Positions 3,501-48,050 of a stretch of 64,000 nt of DNA are shown piece by piece; the stretch's first letter is position 1, and every line of letters begins with the position of its first letter. The translations under genes and the position numbers were made by a program. Location of the stretch: the NCBI RefSeq assembly GCF_027595985.1, contig NC_073313.1, forward strand, positions 100,923,552 to 100,987,551. The letters run 5' to 3'. This stretch comes from Sorex araneus. Lineage: Eukaryota; Chordata; Mammalia; Eulipotyphla; Soricidae. The notes below the pieces were generated by a model. The model was given only the letters and a program-made list of their open reading frames with translations. It did not search any database and had not been told where the DNA came from.

Positions 3501-4255
3501 ATCCAAGATGGCGCCAATGCCACCCAAACCTCTCCCGCACGCGACCCAACACACCAAGCAGGGAACTCTGCGTGTGACCCCTGCTGCACATCACTGGGTG
3601 TTTTGTAAGATTCGAATGGAGTGGCCTCGGCAGGGCACAGAGGGACTGTGGCCGGGCCCAATTGCAGTGCCATCAGGCATGGAGCCGTGGCAGCGGTGCA
3701 CACAGTGGTGCACACAGTGGCTCACCGGGTGGCCTGGGTCTCGGCATGAGTGTTCGACCTGGTACAGACCCTTCACGACAGGGTCCTTCTCTGTTAGCTG
3801 CTCAACAGCCTCCGGGCGCATTCTAGCAATCTCACTGAGATCAACCTGAGGCCGTAGATATCCCAGGTGCTGCCCAGAAATGCAGATAGTGCATGTTTGT
3901 CAGCATGCGAATTGTTACAACATGCCTGCCAATCAAAAGCTTGCTTTCGGTAGCCTGGGAACAACACCCATAAGGAGGATTAGAGGCCTGCTCAAAAGCC
4001 TCCATCCCTCTGGAGAGGCCAGCCAGCTACCGGGGATATCCCGCCCACACTGCAGCACTTAGCAAGTTACCCGTGATGTATTTGATATGCCAAAAACAGT
4101 AGCAGTAACAACAATAAAGTGTTCTTCGTATTCCTGGAGTGAGCAGACGCTTTTGGGCTGCACTGGCACAAGACAGGGATGGATGAAGACACTACTGGTG
4201 CCCACTTGAGCAATCGATGAGCAATGGGATGATAGTAATAGTGATAGTGATTATA
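3501..4255 (+). mobile_element. RTE-tailed non-autonomous element, long head
   Basis: Starts with 'atccaagatggcgcc' and runs through a GC-rich head of about 500 bp that I see nowhere else in the window. It then has the 'gatatgccaaaaacagta' body also found in the long SINE at 23.2 kb. The last 75 bp (4181-4254) match the tail of the RTE at 45.2 kb: a TAC TGG TGC CCA CTT GAG CAA block followed by a short gatagt/gatag repeat without poly(A). Mobilisation by RTE is inferred from this tail. No clear TSD because the left flank is a microsatellite. Confidence 0.6.
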
Positions 4256-8096: not shown

Positions 8097-8672
8097 AGAG
8101 AGTCTCTTGCCCGCACGCCTAGCTGTCTTCCCCAGAGCCCCTCAGAGGGGATGGGCTCCAGCTTCCCTCCCTACCCCGAGTAGAGCTCCCGGCGGCCGAA
8201 GACCACTGGAACCTAGCTACAAGCATGCTTGAGGCCCCTCTCCACACGTTTGGATGGGCCACACGCATGAAGGTACCGGCAGAGGAGCCCAGGTGTGTGT
8301 AATCCCATCAATGGCCAACATCCAGAGACTTAAAAGCGAGCTCTCAGAAGCACGCAGCCCCAAAGTGGCCACACAATATCTTGTAGCCAACTTCTCCCTC
8401 TAGAAGAAACTGGCTTCTGAGAGTTTCCTGCCCACATGGGACAGCCTTGCAAGCTTCCCATGGTGTATTCATATGCTAAATCCAGTAACAAGTTGGATCC
8501 CATTCCCCTGACCCTGAAAGAGCCTCCAGTGCGACATCATTGGGAGGGCCGAGTCGAGAGAGACTTCTAAGATCTCAGGGAAAGGACAAATGGAGAGGTT
8601 ACTGAACCCGCTCGAGAAATCGATGATTAACGGGATTTCGTGATTTTGTGATTTTGTGATTCGTGAATTAAT
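8097..8672 (+). mobile_element. RTE-tailed non-autonomous element, copy A
   Basis: Begins 'agtctcttgcccgcacgcct', with a GC-rich head, then a body containing 'tgtaatcccatcaatggcca' and a 'ccttgcaagcttcccatggtgtattc' block. It ends with an RTE-like tail (8584-8672: gga-caa-atg-gag block, 'cccgctcgagaaatcgatga') and a TGATTTTG simple repeat instead of poly(A). The same family occurs at 39.0 and, in minus orientation, at 57.3 kb. No long frame. Possible TSD aattaat is too short to be sure. Confidence 0.7.
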
Positions 8673-12311: not shown

Positions 12312-12507
12312 CACAAATTGATTTTTTTTGCTCTTTGGGTCACACCCAGGGATGCTCAGGGGTTACTCCTGGCTTTGCACTCAGGAATTACTCCTGGCAG
12401 TGCTTGGGGGACCATATGGGATGCCGGGGATTGAACCCGGGTCGGCCGCGTGCAAGGCAAATGCCCTACCCGTTGTGCTATCACTCCGGCCCCACAAATT
12501 GATTTTT
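12312..12507 (-). mobile_element. SOR-type SINE, young
   Basis: A short A-tailed SINE in minus orientation, flanked by a 15-bp TSD (CACAAATTGATTTTT at 12312-12326 and 12493-12507). The B box is seen in reverse as 'gggattgaacccgggtc'. The body and pol III boxes are well preserved. Confidence 0.9.
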
Positions 12508-23228: not shown

Positions 23229-23487
23229 ATGGGCTAGAGCGATAGCACAACGGTTAGGATGTTTGCCTTACATGTGGTCATCCTGGGCTCAATTCCACCA
23301 CCCCTCTCGGAGAGCCCGGCAAGCTACCAAGTGTATCTCGCCTGCATGGCAGAGCCTGGCAAGCTCCCCGTGGCATATTCGATATGCCAAAAACAGTAAC
23401 AAGTCTCACAATGGGAAAATTACTGGTGCCTGCTCGAGCAAATTGTTGAGTGACAGGATGACAGTGACAGTGATACAGTGATTATTG
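23229..23487 (+). mobile_element. Long SINE: tRNA head with RTE-type tail
   Basis: The head (gagcgatagcacaacggtta, then the B-box region) is the same tRNA-like head as in the short SINE. The body differs: 'ggagagcccggcaagctacc', 'gcctggcaagctccccgtgg', 'catattcgatatgccaaaaa'. The tail (23410-23483) reads, in the frame of the RTE protein, W-E-N-Y-W-C-L-L-E-Q-I, then 'caggatgacagtgacagtgatacagtga'. There is no poly(A). Inserted in the ORF2 of the old L1. A clear TSD was not found. Confidence 0.85.
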
Positions 23488-28177: not shown

Positions 28178-28416
28178 AAAATTTCTGAGTAGCATTCGGG
28201 GCTGGAGTGATAGCACAGCGGGTAGGGCGTTTGCCTTGCACGCGGCCGACCCGGGTTCGAATCCCAGCATCCCATATGGTCCCCTGAGCACCGCCAGGTG
28301 TGATTCCTGAGTGCATGAGCCAGGAGTGACCCCTTTGCATCGCCGGGTGTGACCCAAAAAGCAAAATAAATAAATAAATAAATAAATAAATAAAATAAAA
28401 TTTCTGAGTAGCATTC
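28178..28416 (+). mobile_element. SOR-type SINE, young, reference-like copy
   Basis: A perfect 20-bp TSD (aaaatttctgagtagcattc at 28178-28197 and 28397-28416); the target TTTT/AAAA fits L1 endonuclease. The head has an internal pol III promoter: A box TAGCACAGCGGG (28211-28222) and B box GGTTCGAATCC (28254-28264). The body ends 'gggtgtgacccaaaaagcaaaa', followed by an (AAAT)n tail. This copy is the best guide to the family in this window. Confidence 0.95.
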
Positions 28417-30424: not shown

Positions 30425-31365
30425 TATTTTCTTGTATCACCGTGAGATAGAGTTATAAAGCTTTCATGTTTGACACTCAGCCATACAATGATGGAACACC
30501 TACCCCTCCACCAGTGCCCATTTTCCACCACTGATGTCCCCAGTATCCCCCCTCCCCCACATCCCAGTCCTCACCCTGCCTCTAAGGCAGACAATTTCCC
30601 CAATACTCTCTCTCTAATTTTGGGCATTATGTTCTGCTCGAATTTTCTCACAACTATTCAACCATACCCGCCAGGGTCAGATAATAGATCATTTATTTTC
30701 CATTGCTCATTTTTTGGGGGGGTCACACCCGGCAATGCACAGGGGTTACTCCTGCTTCTGCACTTAGGAATTACCACTGACAGTGCTCAGGGGAACCATA
30801 TGGAATGCTGGGAATCGAACCCAGGTCGGCCGCGTGCAAGGCAAACCTCTACCCGCTGTGCTATTGCTCCAGCCCCCCCCCCATTGCTCATTTTGAATAT
30901 CATGAGAACTCACGTGGCCGTGATTGTAAATGTAAATTTCTAGACTGCAAATAGTTGGGTTCCAGAGACTCCTCTGTACAGCACAAATCTGTTTTGGGAT
31001 TCAATTGGAAGTCTCTGGGACAGGGCTATTGCTGCATTAAAATGGCTCCCGAAGGCAAATTGTGGGCATGACAGCCAGTTTTCTGGGCAAGCGGGGACTT
31101 GAGGAAGCACAGCCTGGTCCTCTGCCACCATGTGGCCTGGAGATTTAGTCCTAGGACCCACATCCCTGGACCTTGCTTGTGGAAGCTCTTGGTCACCGGG
31201 ATTCCATCTGGAGTAGGCGGGGAGACTGCATCTGCTCCATCTGGGCTGCCCCAGTGATATTGGCTCTGTATGGGGCCCAGAGAGATCTCTGGTGCTGTGC
31301 TATCTTCTGGGAATTGCCTTTGTGTCTCTGATCTAGGGCTGTTGGTGCGCAAAGATCCATTACAA
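30425..31365 (-). mobile_element. L1-tailed non-autonomous retroposon
   Basis: The 3' end is at about 30430 ('atcaccgtgagatagagtt', C-rich block 30530-30580). The 5' part at 31140-31290 matches the repeated block of the copy at 11.8-12.2 kb ('gggattccatctgga', 'gggagactgca', 'ctgctccatctgggc'). It may extend to about 31960, where related-looking GC-rich sequence continues, but I cannot fix the 5' edge or a TSD. A SINE has inserted at 30.7 kb. Confidence 0.7.
30701..30894 (-). mobile_element. SOR-type SINE nested in the L1-tailed element
   Basis: Short SINE flanked by CATTGCTCATTTT (30701-30713 and 30882-30894). A run of C at the head end marks the 5' edge. Confidence 0.9.
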
Positions 31366-38174: not shown

Positions 38175-38484
38175 TATATACTAAACTGTCACTGTCACTG
38201 TCATCCCTTTGCTCATCGATTTCCTGGGGTGGGCACCAGTAACGTCTCCATTGTGAAACTTGCTGTTACTGATTTTGGCATATTGAATACGCCACAGGTA
38301 GCTTGCCAGGCTCTGCCGTGCTAGCGAGATACTCTTGGTAGCTTGCTGGGCTCTCCGAGAGAGGCAGAGGAATCGAACTCAGGTTGGCTGCATGCAAGGC
38401 AAATGCCCTACCCACTGCGCTATCATCACTCCAGCCCATATACATATATATATGTATATATACATATATATATATATACTAAAC
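38175..38484 (-). mobile_element. Long SINE: tRNA head with RTE-type tail
   Basis: The SINE itself is 38187-38438, in minus orientation. It ends directly in ACAGTG repeats with no poly(A). Its tail (38187-38260) encodes, in the RTE frame, W-R-R-Y-W-C-P then E-I-D-E-Q-R-D-D. The body is the same as in the 23.2-kb copy. TATATACTAAAC is present on both sides (38175-38186 and 38473-38484). An expanded AT repeat lies between the SINE head and the right copy. Confidence 0.85.
38439..38480. repeat. AT/TATG microsatellite
   Basis: Imperfect TATA, TATG and TACA units beside the SINE head; may be an expansion inside the TSD. Confidence 0.85.
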
Positions 38485-38984: not shown

Positions 38985-39648
38985 ATCCTTTCTCTAGGCA
39001 GTCTCTTGCCCCCGTACCTGGCTGTCTTCACCAGGGCCACTTGGAACTGGGTGGGTTGAGTTTCTCTCACCACCCTGGGCATAGCCCCAGAAGCCAAAGA
39101 CCTCCAGAACCCAGCCACAGCCACCCTCAAAGCCCCTCTCCACACATTCGGATGAGCCTCATGCATGAAGGAACCAGCAGAGAAACCCAGGTGTGCGGGA
39201 CCCGGGGCTGAGATCTCCAAGCCTCTCAGATCAGGACTTCTTAGCCTCCTCTAACCAGAACCCCATTTTCCAGTAGCTTAGCAGTCACATCCACAAAATG
39301 CCCCCGGCTCTGTGTAATCCCATCAATGGCCAAGATTCAGAGACTATAAAACAAAGCTCCCAGAAGCGTGCAACCTCTTATTGTCTAGTTCTCCCTCTTG
39401 GAGAACCTGGCAAGCTACTGAGAGCATCCTGCCCGCATGGCAGAGCCTGGCAAGCTCTCTGTGGTGTATTCGGTATACCAAATACAATGATGGGTCTCAT
39501 TCTTCTTACCCCGTTGAGAAGAACGAGTAAAGAGAAGCTGCTAAAATCTCAGGACTAGGACGAATGGTGATGTTACTGGTGCCACTCAAGAAAGTCAATG
39601 ACCAATGAGTTGACAGTGATACAGAGATACAGTAATCCTTTCTGTAGG
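38985..39648 (+). mobile_element. RTE-tailed non-autonomous element, copy B
   Basis: Framed by atcctttctctagg (38985-38998) and atcctttctgtagg (39635-39648). The head begins 'agtctcttgcccccgtacct' as at 8.1 kb, and the middle contains 'tgtaatcccatcaatggcca'. This copy has an extra stretch (39197-39300) with 'gcgggacccggggctgagat' that the 8.1-kb copy lacks. The body 'gcatggcagagcctggcaag' is shared with the long SINE. The tail (39559-39634) reads GAC-GAA-TGG at its start and ends in gacagtgatacag repeats, no poly(A). Confidence 0.8.
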
Positions 39649-45205: not shown

Positions 45206-46356
45206 ATTTACATTACTTGTATCACTTGTCATCCCGTTGCTCATTGATTTGTTCGAGCAGGCACAAATAACATCTCCATTCGTCCTGTTGTGTTCTAGTG
45301 TAGGCCAATGGTGTCTGCTTGCTCCAGGAACACAAAGATCATCAAACCATTCATTCAGAGTCTTAACGAAGAAGCCTGACAATCTCATAGGTAGGTGGCC
45401 AGGCGTCCTTTTGACATCCCGTGGAATCTGGTCAGTAATGGCTCTAGTCCAGCTGTCATCTCCAAATCGCATTATGTGTCCGGCCCATCTGATTTTCGAT
45501 GCCTTGGCAAATGAGGCAGCATCCTTGATCCTTGATCATCGATTGTGGTCGAAACTCCAGATTCCTTCTCTCACTGAGTGAAATGTGATATTACAAGCAC
45601 AGCTCATTCGATTACTCTTTGGGGGACATGAATAGCGTCCTCATCCTGTTTTCATAGGGCCCAGGTCTTTGAAGCATATGTTAGTGCGAATGGTGGCATC
45701 AAAAAGATGTGCCTAGAGCCAGAGGTTCTTCATTCTCTTAATGACTTATTTGAGGCTCTTGAAGGCATTCCACACCGCTCTCTTCCTCCTGTGCAGTTCT
45801 AGAGCCAAGTTGTTCTTCATGTTGAGTTCTCGACCCAGGTACACATAACTGCTGCATTTGGAGATATTCGTTTCATTGAGAGCAAATGGAATGTTAGGAA
45901 CTAGTTTGTTTTTCATGAACATTGTCTTCATAAGATTCAGTTGTAGTCTGACCTTTCCACACTCAACGGTCAAAGTCGTCCAACATGCGTGCCACTTGGC
46001 TAATGTTTGTTGTTATTAGAACAATGTCATCAGCAAAGCTGACGTGGTGTAGTTGCCTACCGTCTATCTTCACTATCATTCCTTCTCATTTCAGGTGTCG
46101 CATGACGTTCTCGAGGGTAGCACTGAAGAGTTTTGGTGAAATGGTATCACCCTGCCGAACCTCTCTCTTTACGTTGATTATCACTTCCTTGTAGAATGGT
46201 GAGATCCTGGTGGTGAATCTATAATACAGCTTGTGGAGGATCCTGATGTACCAAGTTTGAACGCCCTGTTTGGCTAGGGCTTCGATGACCGCTTCAGTCT
46301 CAATAGAATCAAAGGCCTTCTTAAAATTGATGAACATTAGACAGAGCGGCATCTTT
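45206..46356 (-). pseudogene. RTE retrotransposon, 3' half: reverse transcriptase pseudogene, nematode-like
   Basis: The minus strand encodes an RTE-clade RT. The block at 46352-46086 reads MPLCLMFINFKKAFDSIE, then VRQGDTISPKLFSATLENVM. Next come IDGRQLHHVSFADDIVLI (active site FADD, about 46030-46045) and the CSSYVYLGRE block (45746-45973). The last part includes a WTRAITDQIPRDVKRT stretch (45472 downwards) and ends LLEQINEQRDDK-stop (45222-45284). Only about 15 nt follow before the element ends. Broken by stops and at least two frameshifts. From memory this is much closer to RTE proteins of parasitic nematodes than to mammalian BovB. Its 5' half lies inverted at 47017-48050. Confidence 0.85.
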
Positions 46357-47016
46357 TTTTTAAATTTTATTTTATTGAATCACCATGTGGAAAATTACAA
46401 TGATTTCAGGCTTAAGTCTTAGTCATAAAATGCTGAAACAACCATCCCTTCACCAGTGCCCATATCCCACCACCGAAGACAAAGAAAAAAAAACCCACAG
46501 TACACCTCCCATCCCGCCCACCCCTGCACCCACCCCCGCCTTGTAACTGATAAATTTCACTTTACTTTCTATTTACTTTGGTTACATTCAATATTTCAAC
46601 ACAAACCTCACCATTATTATTAGGAGCACCCCACTAGAGTCAGACCTGTTGTGAAGAGAAATGAGGCACAGTAGCGGCCATGCAGTTTTGTATTTCTGTA
46701 CTTTAACAACTAAGTCCAGGGAGATTTCTTGCGGATCATTGCAAGCTGGTAAACCCCATCTGTGGTCGTCATAATATGGCGGTCCCCACGCCTTTCATCC
46801 CCGGGAAGGGACAGGCGAGAGAGAGAAATACCTTTCCCCTCCCGGGCGGGCATGGGGTCGCGGCTTAGTTCTCTGGCTGGAGACAATCTGCAAGGAGCAG
46901 TCCATGTTGAAGTTGGTTCAGCTGGGTCTGGATTCACGCTCGTGCAGCTGTGGAGGAGCTGCACGCGCATGCGGCCCCCGGGGTCACATCTCGGCAGCCG
47001 ACAGAGCGGCATCTTT
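46341..47016 (-). mobile_element. L1-tailed non-autonomous retroposon inserted in the RTE
   Basis: A perfect 16-bp TSD (ACAGAGCGGCATCTTT at 46341-46356 and 47001-47016) frames a 644-bp insert with a T-rich left end and 'attgaatcaccatgtgg', i.e. a poly(A) tail and tail block on the minus strand. Its 5' part is CpG-rich and shorter than in the 1.8- or 11-kb copies. The TSD itself is RTE coding sequence, so the RTE was there first. Confidence 0.9.
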
Positions 47017-48050
47017 AACAACATCTCGTGATGTTGGTGTTGTCCCAATATTCCAAACGGGATCAGACCACCATCCACTTCATGCGAAATTCTACTTCAT
47101 GGAGCGGGGAGAAAGGGCTGCAAAGTTTAAGAAAAGAACTCCTAGAATAAACACCAACTGGGAGCTCTTTGGCACTATTGAGGCAATATGGGAAGATGCC
47201 GTAGTTGACAACATTGACGAGTAATGCAATCGACTGGTTCAGCAGCTCCATGACTGGGCAAGGAATGCTGAGAGTGAAAAAGCTGAAAAAAGACATCTAT
47301 CTTCAGAAACTCTCAAGCTCATTCATCAACGTGGTTTGGCGTGAGCCTTAGGCAATCACAAGCTAACATCCAAGCTCGAAAAGCTGTGCAGAGAAACGAT
47401 AAAGGAAGAACTCAAAGAGAGAAGAGCATCAGTGTTGGCTGATGTGGCAGAAGCTGATAAAAGTATTCGCAACATCCGCTTGTCCTTTGCCAAGGATTAC
47501 TGCCCTCCGACATCCTGATGGATCTATCACATCTTCCAGAAACACAATAGAGAAGGCTATCAATGACTTCTGCTTGGATGTCTTTGACAGCCACGTCCAC
47601 CTGGCAACATACCAAATTCCACAAGATGGATATATCATTCCCAGCATTCTTTCTTCTGAAGTCCAACATGTCATTTCTTCAATGAAGAAGTGTACAGCAC
47701 CCAATCCAGACAAGGTCAGACCAGAACACCTAAAGAATCTGCCACCAGTACTCGTCAATACACTGGCTCAGCTCTTCATATGCTACCTGTCTGAACGCAA
47801 GTTTCCATCCCAAAGGAAAACCAGCAGGACCGTTTTGTTGTACAGGAAGGGAGACATCTTTGGACATTGGCAACTATCACCCGATCTGCCTGTTGTCCAT
47901 CGTCTGCAAGTTGTTCACTCGAGTCATCCTGAATAGGATTGGCAGAACACTAGACGAAGGACAACCATGCGAGCAAGCCAGGTTCCGAAAAGGATTCAGT
48001 ACAATTGACCATGTCCACCCAGTGACTAAGCTCATTGAGGTTTCGCTAAA
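47017..48050 (+). pseudogene. RTE retrotransposon, inverted 5' half: endonuclease end to RT start
   Basis: On the plus strand: QTGSDHHPLHAKF (end of the endonuclease with the SDH motif, 47050-47090), then NWELFGTIEAIWED, SSEVQHVISSMKKCTAPNPD, RPEHLKNLPPVLVNTLA, DIGNYHPICLLSIVCKLFTR and GFSTIDHVHPVTKLIEVS ending at about 48049. Stops (for example at 47221-47223) and frameshifts show it is dead. The residues at its end (LIEVS) directly precede, within a few codons, those at the start of the minus-strand half (MPLC). The two halves are therefore one element with a 5' inversion. Confidence 0.85.

Follow-up and report, generated by a model that had tools for sequence, protein, structure and literature searches.

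The long SINE of the shrew Sorex araneus is a composite of a host tRNA-type head, about 104 nt of RTE 5′ leader and the RTE 3′ end. Two copies of it lie in the window, the whole stretch of 64,000 nucleotides that was analysed. The SINE very probably represents a non-autonomous partner of the RTE, in which RTE ends were placed on a host head and copying is driven by an RTE that was itself probably derived from a parasite. An earlier note on this DNA had traced the tails of these SINEs to the RTE. The finding was correct yet understated, as the SINE middle is RTE-derived too and two further families have RTE ends.

Composition of the long SINE

The SINE and RTE elements of the window are as follows.

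23230–23483, plus strand: long SINE copy 1 (family AB), 86.2% against AB consensus positions 1–246
About 23230–23297, plus strand: tRNA-type head of SINE copy 1
23295–23402, plus strand: RTE 5′ leader piece within SINE copy 1 (88.9% over 108 nt against the RTE leader at locus L089, E 1.6e-35)
23410–23483, aligned from 23420, plus strand: RTE 3′ end within SINE copy 1, with a terminal repeat of the ACAGTGAT type (score 59)
38189–38438, minus strand: long SINE copy 2 (family AB), 78.8% against copy 1 and 90.9% against the AB consensus
38260–38361, minus strand: RTE leader piece of SINE copy 2 (91.2%, E 4.5e-36)
38195–38252, minus strand: RTE 3′ end of SINE copy 2 (tail 83.1% against the RTE)
45212–46353, minus strand: 3′ part of an RTE copy, RTE1_Sar type (84.8% over 1152 nt against locus L040; stop codon 45224–45222)
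46354–47028: other sequence between the two parts of the RTE copy
47029–48043, plus strand: 5′ part of the RTE copy, inverted (in plus orientation 80.8% over 932 nt against L040 and 85.4% over 103 nt against L089)

On the minus strand the RTE (45284–45222) translates as D-E-W-R-C-Y-L-C-L-L-E-Q-I-N-E-Q-R-D-D-K-stop. The homologous frame of SINE copy 1 (23410–23483) reads W-E-N-Y-W-C-L-L-E-Q-I-V-E-stop, and that of copy 2 (38187–38260, minus strand) reads W-R-R-Y-W-C-P-P-Q-E-I-D-E-Q-R-D-D. These translations bear out, over ~60 nt in the homologous frame, the claim of the earlier note that the tails of both long SINEs carry the last codons of the RTE. The phrase is literally true because the RTE has almost no 3′ UTR; in the SINE tail there was no sign that these codons function as codons. 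Both SINEs were also said to end in a short repeat and not in poly(A), and this held when the endings were compared and consensuses were built: both tails run into the same short repeat as the RTE, and the SINE, RTE and family C (see below) consensuses all terminate in short non-A repeats.

The consensuses were derived from 38 SINE copies (the two of the window included), 30 RTE 3′ ends (that of the window included) and 20 chimera copies. Loci were taken genome-wide (8, 30 and 30 best-match loci plus 20 regions), so that the copies are best matches to window queries and not a random sample. In the alignment of SINE and RTE ends, which the note had proposed as a check, 48 of 52 core positions were identical. 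At the remaining four, some of the 30 RTE copies have the base of the SINE and others do not (16 T/14 C, 15 C/15 T, 14 T/14 C/2 A and 15 A/12 G/3 T), and thus the SINE tail has no fixed difference from the RTE copies in 52 nt. Three of the split positions fall at CpG of the SINE consensus and the fourth at CpG of the RTE. RNA folding of the three tails gave no excess stability over shuffles (z −0.87, 0.25 and −1.14). A roughly alike stem was predicted in all three, none better than shuffles, so a conserved hairpin as the recognised tail structure is not claimed.

The middle of the SINE is also RTE sequence. All or most of AB consensus positions 72–175 matches the RTE leader at 84–91% in four of five stretches upstream of long RTE copies (E 1.5e-37 at L089, 3e-33 at L090, 3e-34 at L091 and 2e-22 at L092). 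The matches sit upstream of endonuclease-coding sequence, which is an open frame in L089; at the fifth locus, L093, no leader was found and the SINE head was present alone. Since the middle matches the leader upstream of the endonuclease, the SINE consists of head, leader and 3′ end, and the idea of a relation limited to the tail was replaced.

The head carries a B box at consensus position 56 and an A-box-like motif at 13. With this head, 3′ homology to a resident LINE and dispersed copies flanked by target site duplications (TSDs), the element belongs with the tRNA-derived SINEs that have a LINE tail. Counts were made over 212,680 bases, a sample comprising the window and the flanks of fetched loci, with the element that had drawn each locus removed. 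Among 67 heads, 55 had neither leader nor tail within 250 nt, 11 had both and one had the leader only. Conversely, 20 of 21 tails were preceded by a leader piece and one by RTE. Eight leader-bearing elements were headless, four with the spacing of family D (see below) and four resembling 5′-truncated long SINEs. The 55 heads without RTE parts belong to a short SINE whose later part differs from the long SINE (consensus from 53 of the 55). It is probably the SOR SINE of Soricidae (Borodulina & Kramerov 2001). ARAGORN called tRNA-Ala(TGC) at 28203–28275 and 30800–30871, both coinciding with short-SINE copies, and the single tRNA match of Rfam in the window (12417–12487) was barely over cut-off.

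Scaling from the 11 to 15 long SINEs of the sample, which is small, close to repeats and includes the window, gives 124,000 to 170,000 in the genome. Genome searches for the long SINE returned first-look candidates in numbers well below this, 3,933 and 6,701; 40 of the 3,933 were scored and all 40 matched. First-look counts are lower bounds, very common words being skipped by the search.

Two further families with RTE ends

Family D retains the RTE leader and 3′ end and has lost the ORF; it was found at two places in the window and in the flanks of loci L012 and L037. Family C is a chimera that includes the first exon of VAV3.

8097–8650, plus strand: family D copy 1, internally deleted RTE, its 5′ boundary placed by a start common to another copy (leader match 8435–8531; RTE 3′ end 8584–8636)
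38996–39635, plus strand: family D copy 2, internally deleted RTE, boundaries approximate (leader match 39392–39486; RTE 3′ end 39558–39623)
3501–4251, plus strand: chimera family C (consensus from 20 other copies)
3501–3621, plus strand: 5′ module of family C
3650–3868, plus strand: VAV3 5′ UTR and exon 1
3867–3975, plus strand: linker, ~106 nt
3963–4104, plus strand: RTE 5′ leader
4120–4251, plus strand: RTE 3′ end, about 130 nt

The first ~100 nt or more of family D had no match in the fetched RTE leaders. A 10-nt sequence, CAGGGACGAA, occurs exactly or nearly so in both the RTE leader and the RTE 3′ end. A clean 10-nt microhomology at the family D joint was considered and is kept as a hint only, as four D copies have extra or changed bases there.

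Family C runs from a module with CCAAGATGGCGCC through the VAV3 5′ UTR and exon 1 and the linker to the RTE leader and 3′ end. Against PDB its exon reading matched Vav-3 (E 2.4e-35) and Vav (2.7e-25). The VAV3 gene itself, at C8:57892321 (loci L102 and L105), reads MEPWRQCAQWLIHCKVLPANHRVTW and onwards, then CAG/GTAAGG. Family C is identical to the gene at 204 of 225 positions, and the homology stops exactly at the exon 1/intron 1 border, CCCAG/GT. The captured host exon ends at an authentic splice donor, as in an SVA_F1-like retroelement that captures first exons, and for this reason the sequence points to capture through splicing.

The other route, in which an RTE entered a VAV3 fragment and the exon was joined at the DNA level without a VAV3 transcript being spliced into an RTE derivative, is unlikely, though it deserves some weight. 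The linker would fit it: no match to the ~106 nt was found in the part of VAV3 intron 1 that was fetched, its initial ~1.3 kb, and the 40 linker places scored out of 2,245 candidates are all on contigs other than C8, where VAV3 lies. Against it, the homology ends at the very border where the gene has its donor.

The first look gave 2,154 candidate places, mostly unscored, with the exon as query; the linker gave 2,245 and the 5′ module 1,145. In each search 40 were scored and 40 of 40 matched, one of the exon matches being the VAV3 gene; the 212,680-base sample held one VAV3 exon copy, that of the window. Because 8 of 68 residues differ from the VAV3 gene, the exon reading suggests a passenger and not a protein in use. 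One family C copy (L103) has part of the 5′ module repeated in inverted orientation. At G000:C6:77841885-77867947 two copies lie in the same orientation about 25.6 kb apart, perhaps through segmental duplication.

It is likely that at least three non-autonomous families, built by the host and sharing the two ends of the RTE, came to be driven by a LINE that had passed from nematode to shrew: a tRNA SINE of the order of 100,000 copies, the internally deleted RTEs, and the VAV3-exon chimera made by splicing (~2,000 or more copies).

Mobilisation and origin of the RTE parts

The RNA of the long SINE would begin in the head that it shares with the common short SINE, a host Pol III promoter of tRNA type from which transcription is presumed to start. 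It would continue through ~104 nt of RTE 5′ leader and the terminal ~60 nt of the RTE to the short repeat. The RTE protein, acting in trans, would recognise the 3′ end of this RNA, nick the target and prime reverse transcription there, leaving a SINE copied with short TSDs and without poly(A). The most likely origin of the SINE is a fusion in which an RTE RNA or insertion without its interior, as in family D, was attached downstream of a short-SINE head.

TSDs were sought at both elements, as the note had suggested, and were found above control, in support of retrotransposition of both. At the SINEs, TSDs of at least 10 nt (one mismatch allowed from 10 nt) were present at 10 of 28 usable loci compared with 13 of 756 mismatched pairings, 10 of the 38 loci having been dropped where the start of the head was not found. 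Exact TSDs of at least 8 nt were present at 7 of 24 RTE loci compared with 11 of 552 mismatched pairings (6 of 30 loci dropped; the inverted copy of the window is among the 24). Clear TSDs are confined to these loci, and some lie within AT-rich simple sequence. The RTE copy at 45212–48043 is 5′-inverted, with its 3′ part on the minus and its 5′ part on the plus strand, the pattern expected from twin priming. An insertion of ~660 bp with an A-rich end separates its halves (46354–47028), and AAAGATGCCGCTCTGTC flanks both sides in the manner of a TSD.

Mobilisation by L1, with the RTE parts as passengers, is improbable. The short SINE has the same head and no RTE parts, which indicates that the head can spread another way; the long SINEs, however, lack poly(A) and end in an RTE-type repeat, and their TSDs adjoin this repeat. 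The TSDs, together with the common short-repeat ending and the consensus alignment, support the earlier proposal that the SINE 3′ ends are captured RTE 3′ ends, as Bov-tA relates to BovB. Several mammalian SINEs carry tails of other RTE families (PMC3747384), and an older mammalian RTE family might likewise have provided the tail here. This is highly improbable, as the tail has no fixed difference from window-type RTE copies in 52 nt and the SINE middle matches the leader of the same RTE.

Protein searches were carried out with two pieces of the RTE. Among the best 120 of 411 matches to the L089 endonuclease piece (262 aa), Sorex fumeus came first and Haemonchus followed (70% over 97%). Angiostrongylus, Necator, Ancylostoma, Heligmosomoides and Nippostrongylus were also present, with one Sorex araneus protein lower. 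With the C-terminal consensus piece, Nippostrongylus was first (77% over 100%) among the best 120 of 945. In both searches the matches listed with an organism shown came only from Sorex or from strongylid nematodes, and the nearest non-shrew relatives among the matches listed are in strongylid nematodes. The Sorex fumeus endonuclease pieces (P0001–P0003) are annotated as ‘craniofacial development protein 2-like’.

The RTE of the window is evidently RTE1_Sar, an assignment based on its protein relatives. RTE1_Sar was published as common to strongylid nematodes and Sorex (Dunemann & Wasmuth 2019, PMC6542046), in a paper that did not detect the RTE in hedgehog, solenodon or mole. Together with the two protein searches, this paper supports the suggestion of the note that a foreign LINE lies behind host SINEs. 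The RTE most probably came from the parasite, so that transfer would have run from worm to shrew. As the relatives of the RTE are in strongylid nematodes, a nematode-related element would have given a host-made SINE its two ends and the machinery that copies it.

The tail was in the LINE before it was in the SINE, because the proteins of nematode homologues have this terminal peptide or one like it. In an alignment of the RTE C-terminus with 11 database proteins, 10 extend to the end. The peptide is EWRRYWRPLEQIDDQRDDR in three Nippostrongylus rows, nearly so in Heligmosomoides, Haemonchus and one unnamed row, and similar in Necator, Angiostrongylus and Parelaphostrongylus. The SINE consensus tail, WRRYWCPLEQIDEQRDD, is 2 of 17 residues off the Nippostrongylus peptide; WRCYWRLLEQINEQRDD, the majority reading of the shrew RTE copies, differs from that peptide at 4 of 17, though the shrew copies are split at three of these sites. 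Sequence sharing by itself gives no order, and the RTE could on that ground have acquired its 3′ end from the SINE. This order is hardly credible and is rejected, barring shrew contamination of the nematode proteins, as the common stretch is coding sequence for the C-terminal residues of the RTE protein and the nematode proteins have the same or similar ends. Divergence does not order SINE and RTE, either in similarity-chosen copies (median non-CpG divergence 4.2% for 38 AB copies and 7.3% for 30 RTE copies) or in the sample (4.2–10.8% for 10 SINEs; 8.6% and 13.8% for only two RTE stretches).

The two window tails scored 59 and 64 when aligned to the RTE 3′ consensus, with a maximum of 28 in 2,000 dinucleotide shuffles each, and the SINE consensus tail scored 89 against a shuffle maximum of 28 (2,000 shuffles). 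A 24-base pattern made from SINE copy 1 and the RTE matched those two places, missed SINE copy 2 and was found in 0 of 100 shuffles. Chance or low-complexity similarity, for which the simple repeat of the final few bases could be cited, is a negligible prospect and is rejected by the shuffles and by the consensuses, built on 38 SINE and 30 RTE copies of the genome.

Relation to known systems

A SINE with RTE ends is of a well-known kind, the nematode link of the RTE is also known, and the long SINE may already be named in Repbase or SINEBase. A literature search on shrew SINEs and the RTE and on VAV3 retrotransposons, covering few subscription journals, gave no report of the SINE–RTE pair or of a VAV3 chimera. 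RTE1_Sar is named in two papers, in one of them as a citation only. A look for shrew passages in PMC12026660, PMC11240701, PMC7245038, PMC5753468, PMC4476161, PMC7716205 and PMC3747384 showed nothing on the long SINE. In PMC3747384 the mammalian rows of the table passage include no shrew pair and the main text is without ‘shrew’ or ‘Sorex’; the main text of PMC6542046 is without ‘SINE’ or ‘non-autonomous’.

The results tie the documented sharing of a transposon between worm and mammal to a larger effect, in which the foreign element would have provided an abundant host SINE with both of its ends. Since the RTE went undetected in hedgehog, solenodon and mole (PMC6542046), the transfer could be dated from the age of the SINE and its occurrence among shrews. 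The VAV3 chimera would be an example of such an engine amplifying a host first exon.

According to PMC3747384, Bov-tA has a tRNA head and a LINE tail, and Bov-A2 has the LINE 5′ end and 3′ end without tRNA. The shrew long SINE is like Bov-tA in its tRNA head and LINE tail, and the case of BovB and Bov-tA is extended here to a nematode-type element. BovB of ruminants is a LINE reported as horizontally transferred (PMC6542046). Unlike BovB, the shrew LINE is the strongylid-nematode type RTE1_Sar and the host is a shrew; like RTE1_Sar of PMC6542046, its nearest non-shrew relatives among the matches listed are in strongylid nematodes. No match named BovB occurred among the best 120 of 411 or the best 120 of 945, a comparison by match names. 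MAR4, RTESINE1 and RTE1-N1_LA consist of an RTE 5′ end and RTE tail without tRNA (PMC3747384); family D resembles them in plan, and those have other hosts and other RTE families. The short SINE, probably SOR, has the head of the long SINE and differs in being without the RTE leader and tail.

Family C has its counterpart in human SVA_F1 with MAST2 exon 1, where the first exon of a CpG-island gene was joined to a retroelement through the exon's own splice donor and then amplified. The logic of family C is the same. SVA_F1 is SVA-based, is driven by L1 and has fewer copies than family C, whereas the ends of family C are from the RTE and its unscored candidate places number ~2,000.
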